Source of the DNA: a virus
IMG/VR virus record: IMGVR_UViG_3300006805_000003
Span: 1 to 44,342 of that record
DNA: 44,342 nt
Reading direction: 5' to 3' (one strand)
In this document: in pieces, positions 14,926-20,766 of the stretch
Position numbering within the stretch: the first letter of the stretch is position 1
Layout of the letters: each line of letters starts with the position of its first letter
Notes under the pieces: generated by a model
What the model was told of the DNA's origin: nothing
Databases searched by the model: none
Seen by the model: the letters and a program-made list of their open reading frames with translations, nothing else
Position numbers and translations under genes: made by a program

Positions 14926-15219
14926 ATGGACGCTTTGCTGAACTCTGAGTGGCTCAAAACAACACTCGCAGGGATTGGCGGTTTTATTTCCGCTTTTGTT
15001 CTGGCTCGCGTAGCATCCGGGCCGGCTCTGCAAACGGCGATCACCAATCAGTTAACCATCCTGCTTTCCGCAGAAGAAAAGCGCTTCAAGGATTTGGAAA
15101 GTGGGATGCAGGCTTTGGCCGCCAAATACAAAAAAGTCCTCGAGCATCTTCGTGTGCTCGAGGACTTGTGTCGAAAGTCTGGTATCGCAGTTCCTGAAAG
15201 ACCGGACATTGATCTTTAA
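14926..15219 (+). CDS. Membrane protein with C-terminal coiled coil, 97 aa
   Basis: ATG 14926 lies three bases after the o-spanin stop; a TTG at 14911 is less likely. Residues ~12-30 (TTLAGIGGFISAFVLARVA) form one membrane span, and the rest is a charged heptad-like helix (EEKRFKDLESGMQ, then YKKVLEHLRVLEDL). It is the last gene of the rightward arm. It could be a second holin/antiholin or lysis accessory; I cannot decide. A 13-bp inverted repeat inside the gene serves as a terminator for the opposing arm. Confidence 0.6.
   Translation: MDALLNSEWLKTTLAGIGGFISAFVLARVASGPALQTAITNQLTILLSAEEKRFKDLESGMQALAAKYKKVLEHLRVLEDLCRKSGIAVPERPDIDL
15130..15167 (-). terminator. Rho-independent terminator of the leftward arm
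   Basis: A perfect 13-bp inverted repeat (15134-15146 with 15155-15167, 8-base loop) is followed on the minus strand by a T6 run (complement of 15130-15135). It lies just beyond the stop of the last leftward gene (15216), inside the coding region of the convergent rightward gene at 14926-15219. Confidence 0.85.
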
Positions 15220-16436
15220 TGATGCTGCTGGCGGGGCGCAGGGGAATAACAATTCCCAAGTGCACCCGCCTCTTTTTTAAGTTGGCCTGAACTTACCATG
15301 ATGTTCAGGACGTTTGCTACGTTGTACGCCGGGACCCTGCCTGAGAGGAAGTTCAGAATACGGGACTCCGCGATAGGTTTTTTCTCCTTAGCGAAGAGTG
15401 AGAAAACATAATACCAGCAATCCTCAATCGCCTTGCTGTCACCGCCTGAGTTCATGGAACGGAAAATATCCGGCATGAAGTGCTCAGCTTCGTAAAGCCA
15501 GTTAAGTGCAAGGTTGTAATCCTCGATTGAAATCACCAGATCATTCCCTCGCGACGCGCAAGCGACCATGCTGAGTTTAAGCAAGTGTGCTGTACGACGA
15601 GTGATGTAGTGGACTAACTTGGGGTGCTCCGGTGCTGGAGGCCCACCCGCCATATGCCAGGCTCCAATCGCTTCGGCTGCCTCAGGGCTGAATGAAATTT
15701 TCCCATAAAGTGATCCGATGATTTTAAGATCATGAACGAGATCCTTTTGTGCCTCTTCCTGAACTTCATACTCACCGAAAAGCGGTTTGATAATTTTCTG
15801 CCCAGCAAAGATGAACAAGGTTCTCGAGGTAAAGCCTTGATCCCATGCACCGTCTGGGAGCATTGATGAAAGATACGAAGGTGTGGTGGAGGCGAGGATG
15901 TTGATCTGAGGCCTGTCCACGTTGAGCTTATGATCTTTTGTTCTCCGGCGTTCCGCATAGCGCTTACCGTCGTAAATGTCGGTGAGGACTGACATGAAGT
16001 CAGACTCGTATGACGGGAGGAACACGCCGAGTTCGTTAGACACGACTAGGAGAGAGTTGAACTCGACGTAGGGTGGAACCTCGCCCGGCCTTACGATGCT
16101 CCGTTTTGCATCGGCTAGGGTATCAACCAAGCTAGCTTTCGTAACCGATGACGGTGCTACGTGGTGGTCAGGGAGAGCGTTCCATAGATCTTCGACGACG
16201 GAGGACACCATCGTTTTACCTACGCCGGGCGGGCCTACGAGAATTATGTAGAGGTTTGGGTAAAGGTTTGACCCTTGAGTTTTAACCCAGACCTTACGCT
16301 CGAGTGCTCCGGCGATTGCTGAGATCGCCGCCCATTTTCTAAAGATGGGCGGTGATGCTAGGTCGTCAGTAAATTCAAGAAACGACTCGATCCAAGAGGG
16401 GAGTCTCCGCGTCTCTTTTGTAGGTACGTTTGTCAT
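15216..16436 (-). CDS. DUF3987-like P-loop ATPase/helicase
   Basis: This 406-residue protein has a Walker A motif GPPGVGKT (residues ~67-74) and a likely Walker B/sensor region (SLLVVSNELGVFL then INILASTTPSYL), in the order of the DUF3987 (YfjI-like) replication ATPases. The N-terminal WIESFLEFTDDLASPP and ALERKVWVKT are also typical. Members often form the helicase part of phage primase-helicases, but no primase domain is fused here. The start overlaps the polymerase gene by 62 bases. It is the last leftward gene, so it probably acts at the fork with the polymerase encoded just upstream. Confidence 0.75.
   Translation of the reverse strand: MTNVPTKETRRLPSWIESFLEFTDDLASPPIFRKWAAISAIAGALERKVWVKTQGSNLYPNLYIILVGPPGVGKTMVSSVVEDLWNALPDHHVAPSSVTKASLVDTLADAKRSIVRPGEVPPYVEFNSLLVVSNELGVFLPSYESDFMSVLTDIYDGKRYAERRRTKDHKLNVDRPQINILASTTPSYLSSMLPDGAWDQGFTSRTLFIFAGQKIIKPLFGEYEVQEEAQKDLVHDLKIIGSLYGKISFSPEAAEAIGAWHMAGGPPAPEHPKLVHYITRRTAHLLKLSMVACASRGNDLVISIEDYNLALNWLYEAEHFMPDIFRSMNSGGDSKAIEDCWYYVFSLFAKEKKPIAESRILNFLSGRVPAYNVANVLNIMVSSGQLKKEAGALGNCYSPAPRQQHH
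15230..15278 (+). terminator. Rho-independent terminator of the rightward arm
   Basis: Nested inverted repeats, outer GGCGGG/CCCGCC (15230-15235, 15265-15270) and inner GGGAAT/ATTCCC (15242-15247, 15252-15257), are followed by a T6 run at 15273-15278. The element is 10 bases past the last rightward stop and lies within the 3' coding end of the convergent gene at 15216-16436. Confidence 0.75.
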
Positions 16437-17901
16437 TTTGTTTGTACTTCTGCAAGCCGCCGGGATTACCTACGATGTTACCATTCTTGTCTGTCTGGGC
16501 CGAACCCCAGTTCCAGCCAGTCTTGGCCTCCGAAGGAACGATCAATACTCGATCGTGTTTAAGTTGGATCGGGATCTGCAACGCTTTGATGACTGACGGT
16601 AGGATTTCATCTTCAAGTTCCTCTGGGTACTGGACGACGATAGCATCATGGATTTGAAGAAGGACCTGACAGGTGTTCATCCGCCAAACCGCAAGCAGCC
16701 CCATGTTCAAAAGTTCGCCAATGACTGACTGAGGTTCAAAGGCGATTGCTTCTCGGATAGTGGTGTCATCATCGCGGCGCCCGAAAAAGTATCTCCGCAT
16801 ACCGAGCATCGTGGTGAGGAAACCTTTGGTGTAAAGTTCGGTAGCAACCCACTGATGCCACTTAGGAAACGCGGGAAACGCTTTGAAGTATTTGATCTGA
16901 AACTCCCCGATCGTAGTGGCCGGGAGGTTTGTGTGCTTGGACATTGTGTAGGGTTTGCCTCGATAGTTCGACCCGTGTCCGAGAACCTTTGCCATGTGGC
17001 GGAAAGAGTGCTGACGGTAGAATGGGCGTTCCGCAACCTCTTTATCACCCTTGGCCGTACCAACCCAGGGAAGTTCCGTCCACGCCATTTTACAGACTGT
17101 GGTATGAAGATCACCGGACTCACAAGCATCGAGGTAGCGTCCGTCATGGAAGAGGTTCCAATGGATGGCGCCGCAAGCGCGTGACTCAGCTTGTTCAAGG
17201 TCGATGTAAGCGAGCTTCATTCCCGGGTCTGCGGTAAAGACTGAGCGAAGGCGCTCCTCAACATTCTGAAGATTGGTGCCTGTACCAAAATCCGACATCG
17301 AGGAAGAGAACCGCCCAGTGGTTGTGCCGACAATGTTGTAACTTGTTCTCATCCGCCCGTCTTTGTCGATTTCAGTTGTGAGAACTGAGATTTTTTTCGC
17401 GAGATCTTTGAGGAAAAGAATACGCGAGATAAACGGGCGGGCGATGAAGTGAGCCGAAAGCTGCTCAAGAGCTTTACGGTCAGTGGTTGGGGTGTACTGA
17501 CCTTTGGAATTTCTCTTACGGATTGGCGGGAGGCCGAGGGTCTCGTAAAAGAACTTGACCAGCTGCGTGGGGGAGTTCCAGTTCAACTCAATCCCAAGAC
17601 CCTCACGAAGAAGGTACTTGAGATCAGCATCGACAGCCTCGAGATCTTTGCGGTAAGATGCTACGACTTTATCTCGAGTGGCTTTGTCAACGAGGATGCC
17701 ACGCATGTTCATCTCAAGAACAGGCGCTTGAAGTGCTCGACGGAAGTCGTAGGTTTTTTGAGAGACTTCGTCGAGCATAGGCTCGATCACTTCAAATACC
17801 TCGAGTGTGACGCAGCAGTCAAGACCGTTGTAGATCCAGCTGCGATGGTCTGGGTTGAGTTCGGTCTCTGGGGTAAGTTCGGACGTGTCGATAATTCTCA
17901 T
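16375..17901 (-). CDS. Family A DNA polymerase, polymerase part carrying exo motif III
   Basis: I start this gene at ATG 17901, whose ATGA overlaps the stop of the DUF7768-like gene; the open frame extends further upstream only as antisense-like sequence. The 508 residues contain motif A (AYIDLEQAESRACG, D234), motif B (RHMAKVLGHGSNYRG, R301/K305) and motif C (LLQIHDAIVVQY, H418-D419). Motif C has alanine where Escherichia coli Pol I has glutamate; phage enzymes vary here. Residues 24-28 (YNGLD) fit exonuclease motif III (YxxxD), whose partners I and II are in the separate gene at 18220. So this is the C-terminal piece of a split polymerase. It has no 5'-nuclease domain. Confidence 0.9.
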   Translation of the reverse strand: MRIIDTSELTPETELNPDHRSWIYNGLDCCVTLEVFEVIEPMLDEVSQKTYDFRRALQAPVLEMNMRGILVDKATRDKVVASYRKDLEAVDADLKYLLREGLGIELNWNSPTQLVKFFYETLGLPPIRKRNSKGQYTPTTDRKALEQLSAHFIARPFISRILFLKDLAKKISVLTTEIDKDGRMRTSYNIVGTTTGRFSSSMSDFGTGTNLQNVEERLRSVFTADPGMKLAYIDLEQAESRACGAIHWNLFHDGRYLDACESGDLHTTVCKMAWTELPWVGTAKGDKEVAERPFYRQHSFRHMAKVLGHGSNYRGKPYTMSKHTNLPATTIGEFQIKYFKAFPAFPKWHQWVATELYTKGFLTTMLGMRRYFFGRRDDDTTIREAIAFEPQSVIGELLNMGLLAVWRMNTCQVLLQIHDAIVVQYPEELEDEILPSVIKALQIPIQLKHDRVLIVPSEAKTGWNWGSAQTDKNGNIVGNPGGLQKYKQNDKRTYKRDAETPLLDRVVS

Positions 17902-18218
17902 GAGAGGATCTTCCGAAATTCGACTGGGATGCCGTAAAGACGAGCGTGGCGGATACCCTCGAGCATTCCTTGAGAGATCCCACGATCCTCGTAGACGACG
18001 CAAAGCTCTGCATGACGATACCAAGAGAGTCCGGCTGAAATTCCAAGATCACGTTCAGTCTCATTGGTGTCGTCAAGCACACCTTCCTGAGTGTAAAGAA
18101 GATGTGAAGCAAGTGGGGCTTCGCCAAGTTTCAGTGAATGATGAACACACTTGCGAGCATAGATGAGGTTTCTCTCCACATCGCCAGCGTAAGGTGACTC
18201 CAGAATAACCCGCTTCAT
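17898..18218 (-). CDS. DUF7768-like protein inserted between polymerase pieces
   Basis: This 106-residue protein matches the small DUF7768-like family: VILESPYAGD at the start, GEAPLASHLLYTQ in the middle, ERDLGISAGLSW, then EDRGISQGMLEGI and GIPVEFR. It resembles nucleoside 2-deoxyribosyltransferase/DUF4406-like folds, so nucleotide binding is plausible but unproven. ATG 18218 is preferred because AAGAGGG lies nine bases before it; the in-frame ATG at 18227 would abut that site. It sits one base after the exonuclease gene stop, and its own stop overlaps the polymerase start, filling exactly the gap between the two. Confidence 0.75.
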   Translation of the reverse strand: MKRVILESPYAGDVERNLIYARKCVHHSLKLGEAPLASHLLYTQEGVLDDTNETERDLGISAGLSWYRHAELCVVYEDRGISQGMLEGIRHARLYGIPVEFRKILS

Positions 18219-18219
18219 A

Positions 18220-19224
18220 TCATTCATCCCTCTTAACTGTTTCATGCTTTCGCATGAGCTTCCACCCGGCCTCGTTGGTGTAGACTGAGCCAAGGAAGTC
18301 AAGTCCCTTTGGCGACTCAGGCTGAAGGCTGTGGTGAAGCAGCATCGTGTCGTCAGAATAATTTTTAGTTGGTATGCCGTAACGTCTCCACAAAAAATGA
18401 ATATCGTAGATACCGTTCTGGCCGACCTTACGACATGGGAGGTTGAGGATATATCGGATCAACCCCCACACTGTCATTTCATCTTCAAGCGTTTTCCAGT
18501 AAGAACCATTCGGAGAAAGCTTCGAGGTAATCGGAATAACGAGCGCGAGATCTTTCGACGGGGCGAACCCGATCTCAGTGATCTGATCTCCAGCCGTTTC
18601 AATATCGAAGCTAAGTATCTTGCATGGAAGAATATAGCGCTCAATGAACTCTCGTATATCTTCGATGGTTGGATCAACCCAGATCAGTCGTTTTGGGCGA
18701 ACGACCTCAGGGAAAGCGGACTCACGCAGCGCCTTCTCAAAATCAAGGATGGTGACTGGACGGAGTGACCAGTCCTTGATGATGGAAAGAGGGTGGTAGG
18801 TCGGAAGAACCTTCAGACCGTGGATGCCGGAGGCACAGGTTCCTCGAACTTTACGGATTGCAGACGAACCCAAAGTGGCCCATGTTGCCGCAGCTCCAAG
18901 AGCGACGACAATATTTGGGGCAATGTCTCTAAGTTCAGCTTCGAAGGCTGTAACTTCTGAAGCGAATTCAGCACGGATATATTTTCCGGATCGGATTTGG
19001 CTCCGGCCAGGGATACCTGAAGTTTTAGGTCCACAGAAATAATCAATGTCATTGGATGGTCCTACTCGTTGTTTGATGACGTCAGTGAAATAACAATCGG
19101 CGCGACGGATGCCGGCCTCTTCGAGCATCTTGTTAAGGACGTAGGAGGTTTTGCCTACAAAGGACATATGGGCTGAGGCTTCAGCGTCCCCGTAATAATC
19201 TCCGACGAAAGCGATGTTTGGCAT
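18220..19224 (-). CDS. UDG-like domain fused to 3'-5' exonuclease (split polymerase N-part)
   Basis: This 334-residue protein has two domains. Residues 1-170 resemble family 4/5 uracil-DNA glycosylases: an opening FVGDYYGD, SFVGKTSYVLNKML, and a C-terminal LPTYHPLSI motif with H144. Residues ~200-320 carry DnaQ-type exonuclease motif I (LSFDIETAG, D207/E209) and motif II (VGQNGIYDIHFL, D274), plus YSDDTMLLHHSL. Motif III is absent and instead begins the polymerase gene at 17901. SPO1-like phages also fuse a UDG-like domain to Pol A, but in one chain. Genuine glycosylase activity is uncertain because the first motif deviates from the usual GEAPG. Confidence 0.85.
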   Translation of the reverse strand: MPNIAFVGDYYGDAEASAHMSFVGKTSYVLNKMLEEAGIRRADCYFTDVIKQRVGPSNDIDYFCGPKTSGIPGRSQIRSGKYIRAEFASEVTAFEAELRDIAPNIVVALGAAATWATLGSSAIRKVRGTCASGIHGLKVLPTYHPLSIIKDWSLRPVTILDFEKALRESAFPEVVRPKRLIWVDPTIEDIREFIERYILPCKILSFDIETAGDQITEIGFAPSKDLALVIPITSKLSPNGSYWKTLEDEMTVWGLIRYILNLPCRKVGQNGIYDIHFLWRRYGIPTKNYSDDTMLLHHSLQPESPKGLDFLGSVYTNEAGWKLMRKHETVKRDE

Positions 19225-19264: not shown

Positions 19265-19447
19265 TCAATCACCCGTGTAAGGTGAAAGATCTTCCAGCCT
19301 TTTTATTGTGGGGTTAGGTAACGGATCAGCCTGGGCTTGGATGATGTAGAAAACAACCTCGCGGAAAATGAACTTGCGAACGATCCAGTACGAGACGCCA
19401 TCACACATAACTCTGTCACCTTCGGATGGATAGTATCGCCATTTCAT
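19265..19447 (-). CDS. Hypothetical protein, 60 aa
   Basis: The start ATG overlaps the stop of the ParB-methyltransferase gene as ATGA, which supports a real, translationally coupled gene. The product is aromatic-rich (WRYYPSEGDRV, YWIVRKFIFREVVFYII) and looks like a small beta domain. I do not recognise a family. It lies 40 bases upstream of the UDG-exonuclease gene. Confidence 0.6.
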   Translation of the reverse strand: MKWRYYPSEGDRVMCDGVSYWIVRKFIFREVVFYIIQAQADPLPNPTIKRLEDLSPYTGD

Positions 19448-20724
19448 ATGCGTAGCCTCCGTGCTCGGTTGAGTTCTTCCTGAGCGATCTTGGCGAACTC
19501 AGGGTTGAGTTCAGTGCCGACGACAAACTTGGCGCCAAGGGACTCCGCTGCACGAAGAGCGCTACCACCGCCGCAGGTCGGGTCGAGCATGATGGTGTTG
19601 GTGTCAACCAGCATACGGAAGAAGTGGCGGAGCATTGCCTCAGGTTTCTCGGACATGTGGATGTTGCGCGAGGTGGGTGCGGCATAGGCATTGGCAACGG
19701 CCTGAACAACAGGTCGATCACCCAGGCGCATGAGGAGTGCGGTCTCGTAGATACGACGAGGGCCGCGAGTTGGGTCGGGCAGAATGCCTACGTTGTCGCT
19801 CTTGAGCCAGATCAGCGGGAACGGCTCGATCATAACATCGCTGTTGTCGGCGAAGAAGTCCAACGTCTGCTGATAGTATTTCATCGAGAACCAGAACAGG
19901 ATATGGCAGGACGGGGTAGTGATTTTGGGAATGGCTTCACAAAGTGCTCGGCACAGATCCCAGTACACATCCTCGCTGTCAGCGTAACCGCCGTGGGCTG
20001 CTGCTGAACCTTGATCAGATTTATCCATCCCGACTCCGTATGGGAAGTCGCAGTGAATGAAGTTGAAGCGCGGGCCGGAATAGGTCTTTGACCACTCAGA
20101 GAAGTTGGTGTTGATGATGGACTGAGGGAGCGGTGTCTCGGCGATTTTCTCGATGACAGGGGCGCCGACGAGGGCCTTGATAGCGTCAACTTCCTGAGTG
20201 TCCTTGCGGGCTTTAGCCCGCTCAGTGATGCCGCGAGCGACTGAGAACTTCGGCGCTGCGATGACACGCTCGTTACCATCGAGGATTTCAGCGGCGATGG
20301 CAAGGGTCTGAGAGACGTTGTACTGGGACAGGCCGAGGGCTTCAGCGGTTTTCAGCTGAGTCCACTCAGGATCTTTCGCCTTGCGGAGTTCGTTGTAGCG
20401 CTGAACCGCGAGGCACTGATCCTTCCAAGGGATGTCAAGGCGCTTGATGTTTTCCTCGAGCTCGATAGCTTGAAGAACATCAGACTCAACTTCATCAGTG
20501 TACTGGCAGGTGATGTGGGTCCATCCGAGAGACTTTACGGCGGTGAGGCGGCGCTCACCCGCGACGAGGATGTTGTCGCGAGTAACAACGATAGCGTTGA
20601 TGAGGCCACGCTCGGCGATTGACTGAGCGAGTTCCTCGATCCCGGTAAGTTCACGGCGCTGACGACTGTCGCGCTCGACGATAATACGTTCGACGGAGAT
20701 GTTGTGGTATTGGCCTGAAGTCAT
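19444..20724 (-). CDS. ParB-like nuclease domain fused to DNA methyltransferase
   Basis: Start ATG 20724 has GGTGA five bases upstream; a TTG five codons earlier is less likely. The 426 residues begin with a ParB/Srx domain (ELAQSIAERGLINAIVV, then VAGERRLTAVKSLGW), followed by a helix-turn-helix-like region (AEALGLSQYNVSQTL). The C-terminal half is an amino-methyltransferase with motif IV DFPYG preceding motif I LDPTCGGGSALRAAE, the beta-class order. The first proline of the usual DPPY is replaced by phenylalanine. It probably methylates phage DNA against host restriction; no cognate endonuclease is present. Confidence 0.85.
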   Translation of the reverse strand: MTSGQYHNISVERIIVERDSRQRRELTGIEELAQSIAERGLINAIVVTRDNILVAGERRLTAVKSLGWTHITCQYTDEVESDVLQAIELEENIKRLDIPWKDQCLAVQRYNELRKAKDPEWTQLKTAEALGLSQYNVSQTLAIAAEILDGNERVIAAPKFSVARGITERAKARKDTQEVDAIKALVGAPVIEKIAETPLPQSIINTNFSEWSKTYSGPRFNFIHCDFPYGVGMDKSDQGSAAAHGGYADSEDVYWDLCRALCEAIPKITTPSCHILFWFSMKYYQQTLDFFADNSDVMIEPFPLIWLKSDNVGILPDPTRGPRRIYETALLMRLGDRPVVQAVANAYAAPTSRNIHMSEKPEAMLRHFFRMLVDTNTIMLDPTCGGGSALRAAESLGAKFVVGTELNPEFAKIAQEELNRARRLRI

Positions 20725-20737
20725 CGAAGTCACCAGC

Positions 20738-20766
20738 AAAAATGGGCAGGGGTGTTAGCCCTGCCC
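20738..20766 (-). terminator. Rho-independent terminator, leftward
   Basis: An 8-bp stem (20744-20751 with 20759-20766, 7-base loop) is followed on the minus strand by AT5. It lies in the 60-base gap between the gene at 20788 and the ParB-methyltransferase start, so it could lower expression of the downstream polymerase cluster relative to the recombination genes. Confidence 0.75.

Follow-up and report, generated by a model that had tools for sequence, protein, structure and literature searches.

How can a DNA polymerase proofread when a complete, unrelated gene lies inside its exonuclease domain, and how did the gene come to be there? The question is raised by IMG/VR virus record IMGVR_UViG_3300006805_000003, a podovirus-like genome of 44.3 kb in which major head, large terminase, head-tail adaptor, tail, and tail-fibre genes were found. 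All 44,342 nucleotides (nt) were analyzed and are called the window here; the window features described below lie on its minus strand. In order of transcription, a gene with a UDG-type domain and part of an exonuclease (UDG-exo) is followed by a DUF7768 gene, a family A polymerase gene (pol), and a DUF3987/primase gene. UDG-exo and pol are very probably obligate partners in one proofreading polymerase, each of the two subunits supplying part of the exonuclease active site. The gap between them marks an old fission that has become fixed; it serves as a slot with variable gene content, and DUF7768 is an optional passenger in it.

UDG-exo (18220–19224, 334 amino acids [aa]) carries a UDG-family domain (Pfam UDG, 5e-13) and exonuclease motifs I and II. 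Pol (16375–17901, 508 aa) carries exonuclease motif III and a family A polymerase domain (Pfam DNA_pol_A, 5e-31). In translation, motif I is DIET (UDG-exo residues 207–210, including D207 and E209; 18595–18606), motif II is QNGIYD (residues 269–274, including N270 and D274; 18403–18420), and motif III is YNGLD (pol residues 24–28, including Y24 and D28; 17818–17832). The break really is inside the exonuclease domain, between motifs I/II and motif III. It had been placed there by the original prediction, a reading of the DNA made without database searches, whose coordinates, motifs, and overlaps were correct.

Profile matches agree. The only PF01612 (DNA_pol_A_exo1) match in the window is a partial Pfam match in UDG-exo, covering just positions 18–129 of 173, whereas one single-chain relative covers 10–171. 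The match to the DNA Pol I model PRK05755 ends at 428 on UDG-exo and restarts at 458 on pol, at Y24. PHROG_17 is covered from 480 to 800 by UDG-exo and then from 807 to 1242 by pol; homology to this single-chain UDG-exo-PolA type is clear, though the window has two chains. A profile of the single-chain relatives aligns to the Klenow fragment across the break position. Motifs I, II, and III of the DnaQ-like exonuclease do not stand on one chain, with a stop, a gene, and a start between II and III, and no other RNase_T/DnaQ family exonuclease was found elsewhere in the window. The polymerase is of the Pol I/Klenow type, with a PolA catalytic domain that has the motif A and motif C aspartates.

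Exactly 318 bases (17902–18219) separate the UDG-exo stop from the pol start. As predicted, they are occupied by the DUF7768 gene (17898–18227, 109 codons, 109 aa), a member of an NDT-like family (Pfam E=1.2e-30) that also matches PHROG_355, nucleoside 2-deoxyribosyltransferase. It overlaps its neighbors by 8 nt and 4 nt, in stop/start fashion. Related loci were collected by scans of IMG/VR, a phage collection, and one genome collection; one scan of relatives took the best 80 of 586+ matches. Both genes are present in 227 loci, 146 of which are non-redundant at 95% polymerase identity, and a fused UDG-exo/pol gene occurs in none of them. A scan with the divergent L083 polymerase returned only two loci, both 100% identical to L083.

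Across the 146 non-redundant loci the gap ranges from -4 to +1702 nt. The two genes abut within 5 bases, with no gene between them, in 39 of the 146, and a 4-nt overlap occurs 20 times. Slot content was surveyed in 93 non-redundant loci and amounts to 0 to 5 small open reading frames (ORFs), with DUF7768 present in about 30%. Pfam matches on 106 slot ORFs, some of which possibly match more than one family, were to DUF7768 (26), DUF1937 (8), HNH_3 (5), KTSC (5), DUF7220 (4), DUF4406 (4), and Nuc_deoxyrib_tr (2). The slot therefore favors small NDT-like genes, yet is bound to no single one. The HNH-family genes that fill it in L026, L030, and L186 are a possible trace of homing-endonuclease traffic.

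The original prediction read the DUF7768 gene as an insertion into a once-continuous chain. That this gene itself broke the polymerase in the window lineage would suit its exact fit, with an overlap at each end, and the supported single-chain ancestor (below). However, the same break is found with no gene between in 39 of the 146 loci and with unrelated genes in others. DUF7768 is present in L022 and absent from its tree neighbors L024 and L025, and its relatives are widespread, in 382 phage records that include phages of very different genome size. This origin is highly improbable, and DUF7768 was rejected as the splitting insertion because the identical break exists in loci that lack it. A continuous ancestor stood; the identity of the splitter did not. 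A gene located inside a split enzyme need not be its splitter.

The enrichment of NDT-like families, namely DUF7768, DUF1937, DUF4406, and Nuc_deoxyrib_tr, could also mean that the polymerase has the DUF7768 protein as a working third part, one that might, for instance, clean up the nucleotide pool beside the fork. This is quite unlikely, as most members keep an intact polymerase pair but no DUF7768, and DUF7768 is widespread in phages outside the split clade; its association with the polymerase may be genomic only.

The window pieces share a reading frame, as had been noted, but as evidence this carries no weight. Frame offsets of 0, 1, and 2 occur in 40, 43, and 63 of the 146 loci, a scatter which makes the shared frame in the window a matter of chance, to be expected in roughly one locus out of three or four. 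The offsets bear equally on the idea that intron splicing, protein splicing, or frameshifting/read-through yields a single chain in the cell. Phage polymerase genes with self-splicing introns are known (cited in PMC10580990), and the pol of L087 holds an intein-like insert (Intein_splicing 9e-5, under its cut-off). Against such joining, an Rfam search of the window matched no intron, and what lies in the gap there is a separate ORF, DUF7768, that has its own start and stop. Frame offsets take all three values, gaps run from -4 to +1702 nt and hold arbitrary contents and stops, and each chain has a separate start, a Shine-Dalgarno-like signal, and conserved ends. Recoding or read-through was rejected on account of the over-long gaps and varying frames, and joining by any of these routes is extremely improbable.

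In a tree of the polymerase region, all 55 of 55 exo-split members fall in one clade with support 1.0, among single-chain relatives. Single-chain UDG-exo-pol proteins fall outside the clade, and its exact sister group is weakly supported (0.67). Because the split clade nests among single-chain proteins, a continuous single-chain ancestor is supported by the tree, and the simplest reading would be one old fission whose reversal is never seen. Homologs with a continuous chain, which the original prediction had proposed to look for, were found in Microcystis phage Mel-JY34 (UDG-exo-PolA, 810 aa) and IMG/VR relatives. These have the same domain order and operon context as the window but one unsplit chain where the window clade has two. 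The SPO1-type polymerase has a UDG domain fused to PolA; UDG-exo matched nine phage records at E<1e-5, SPO1 not among them, and SPO1 is not a close relative. The fission could have come from a gene that inserted and was subsequently lost, or from a simple stop/restart mutation; the HNH genes of a few slots offer no more than a hint.

Exonuclease residues are conserved on both sides of the break. Each of D207, E209, N270, D292, W321, and K322 in UDG-exo and Y24 and D28 in pol is present in 146/146 non-redundant pairs, and D274 is kept in 145/146, with E in the remaining one (L088). In the polymerase domain, the motif A aspartate D234 (17200–17202) is invariant (146/146), as is D419 (146/146) of the motif C His-Asp pair H418-D419 (16645–16650). 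The exonuclease might instead be dead or unused, with the first chain a free UDG-like protein and the second an exonuclease-minus polymerase. In phages, PolA variants do occur whose exonuclease is missing or has been inactivated, namely divPolA1 and divPolA2 (PMC11348598). This is very unlikely here, as the exonuclease catalytic residues are retained on both chains whereas UDG-site residues vary among relatives (D/E at 9 and D/N/S at 48), and a dead exonuclease is not expected to keep motif III on the polymerase chain.

The new chain ends are also conserved. UDG-exo ends in W321-K322 and a C-terminal tail with consensus about T-I-K-R-D-E and then a stop (18220–18264); the tail has a median of 13 aa and a conserved composition. 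Pol begins with a conserved N-terminal extension (M-K/R-I-I-x-T..., 17833–17901) in which a short strand is predicted. This head, before YNG, has a median of 23 aa and is extra length relative to single-chain relatives. WK and YN are 17–18 residues apart in nearly all single-chain relatives (one has 7), and the split family has 13 + 23, or about 36, residues and a gene boundary at the same point. Nothing was thus deleted at the cut. A Shine-Dalgarno-like sequence precedes pol in 74/146 loci and UDG-exo in 62/144, on a background of about 0.20.

Because the two window genes happen to share a frame, the chains could be modelled with AlphaFold2 as one read-through chain with a 107-codon meaningless linker. 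The joined chains had a mean predicted local distance difference test score (pLDDT) of 87.5 and a predicted template modelling score (pTM) of 0.85; pLDDT fell below 50 nowhere but in the linker and at the very C-terminus, and the pol head was modelled at about 90. A control used an alignment of read-through rows of split loci from which every single-chain homolog had been removed, and gave pLDDT 86.7 and pTM 0.83. Each model matches the whole of the Klenow fragment (1kln), with template modelling (TM) scores of 0.77 and 0.76 by target length. The models support a joint Klenow-like fold and are not independent proof of it. Since the catalytic residues are invariant and the joint model is confident, the two pieces most likely reassemble as subunits, as originally proposed. 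Beyond the modelled fold, physical association, shared catalysis, and obligate dependence of the two chains are inferred.

Several points weigh against a two-chain proofreading enzyme. AlphaFold learned the Klenow fold in training and could bring the pieces together irrespective of their behavior in the cell. The 25 read-through rows of the control alignment (24 besides the query) retain same-genome pairing. The pattern of residue conservation would also suit an exonuclease that is active only in some states of the complex. The loci were gathered by similarity to split members, and fused relatives could be under-sampled.

The proposed two-subunit enzyme would go back to a single-chain UDG-exo-pol ancestor and a single cut, in the loop that links exonuclease motifs II and III. 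The first subunit would comprise the UDG-type domain and motifs I/II (D207, E209, and D274), and the second the entire polymerase together with motif III (Y24 and D28). Encoded in one gene cluster and each translated on its own, the subunits would bind with high specificity and dock into one Klenow-like enzyme, completing the 3′–5′ exonuclease site in trans, with the UDG-type domain probably carried along on the exonuclease subunit. The gene boundary would have turned into a slot that gains and loses small genes, DUF7768 in the window. A more far-reaching reading, possible but unlikely, is that the split is adaptive and not merely tolerated. Because the exonuclease would be complete only with the UDG-exo subunit bound, the phage could then switch or tune proofreading, and uracil sensing, by subunit exchange or dosage. 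Such an enzyme would be a polymerase with dissociable proofreading, to one active site of which both subunits contribute.

Split phage replication enzymes that reassemble are already established; an exonuclease-site cut fixed across a clade appears to be new. In T4-like Aeromonas phages 25 and 44RR the family B polymerase gp43 is split as 43A/43B, which co-purify with polymerase activity, and the split NrdA of phage Aeh1 is active (PMC2988022, a review). Like the window pair, these are replication or nucleotide enzymes made as two chains with other sequence between their genes. They differ in that gp43 belongs to family B and the window polymerase to family A, and in that the gp43 and NrdA splits are isolated cases tied to homing endonucleases or an untranslated spacer. 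The cut in the window clade runs through the exonuclease active site and is fixed over a large clade, and its slot often holds no endonuclease or nothing: DUF7768 occupies it in the window, HNH_3 accounts for only 5 of 106 slot ORFs, and 39 of 146 slots are empty.

Closer in polymerase family are OM43 phages MEP401 and MEP402, whose family A polymerase is interrupted in its polymerase domain by a small ORF. The split is retained in most group I metagenomic genomes, and the authors suspected an intron (PMC10580990). These phages and Vibrio phage VS-ABTNL-3 resemble the window in that two ORFs, separated by a small one, encode their family A polymerase, but their cut is in the polymerase domain and the exonuclease is whole on the first chain; the window break is not of this type. 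A search of the literature found no description of a cut within the exonuclease, a weak negative as subscription journals were thinly covered.

Caulobacter phage Kuura (OQ067476) is a cultured member of the split clade, with the same break between genes 29 and 26. Kuura and window proteins are 38% identical for UDG-exo and 41% for pol, and the Kuura slot holds two different small genes where the window has DUF7768. Kuura gene 29 is annotated as hypothetical, and the words "split" and "uracil" are absent from the main text of its paper (PMC9959647). Annotation is prone to miss this exonuclease, whose partial domain scores at or around the Pfam cut-off. The clade, of environmental viruses of bacteria, appears to be a natural case in which two gene products share one catalytic site of a replicative polymerase, an arrangement maintained throughout a large viral clade. 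It offers a direct system for studying how fissions are fixed, how split enzymes find their partners, and possibly dissociable proofreading.

UDG-exo-PolA proteins have at least four break points, counting the exonuclease cut. Some lineages are split in the polymerase palm, at about Mel-JY34 residues 544–563, often with small genes between (L138–L145, L149, L151–L155, L159, L160, L163, and L008); these sit elsewhere on the tree than the exo-split clade. In IMG/VR loci L125, L128, and L147 the apparently same palm split lies in one frame. Recoding was considered for these three loci and dropped, as the in-frame stops cluster around the palm split. The break is between UDG and exonuclease in L137 and L167, at about residue 213–218, and after motif III, at the exonuclease/polymerase border, in L166 and L004.

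Downstream of pol, in the same gene cluster, lies the primase/helicase-like DUF3987 gene (15216–16436; PHROG_14296 DNA primase, 5.6e-54). Upstream genes include ParB/methyltransferase-like, SSB-like, and Sak4-like annealing protein genes and an exonuclease gene. Directly upstream of the polymerase genes, 19444–20739 encodes a fusion of a ParB-like nuclease domain with a DNA methyltransferase-like domain, and several relatives have genes with methylase or ParB-like annotations next to the polymerase. The N-terminal UDG domain of the window, compared with the family 4/UdgX-like type, matches UDG_fam4 at 5.7e-16, under the curated cut-off. It has D at residues 9 and 48, where most relatives have E and N, and these differences may have changed or abolished its glycosylase function.

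Intein-like inserts occur in two related polymerases. The single-chain UDG-exo-pol of L134 (3977–7252) has an in-frame, mini-intein-like insert of about 280 aa (CLTAGHEVLTPDGW...VTGN|TNY) that matched no Pfam intein model. The insert in the split-clade pol of L087 (3536–5497) starts CVLPTAEALTPNGW and ends VTGN|T, with a frame break upstream of it.

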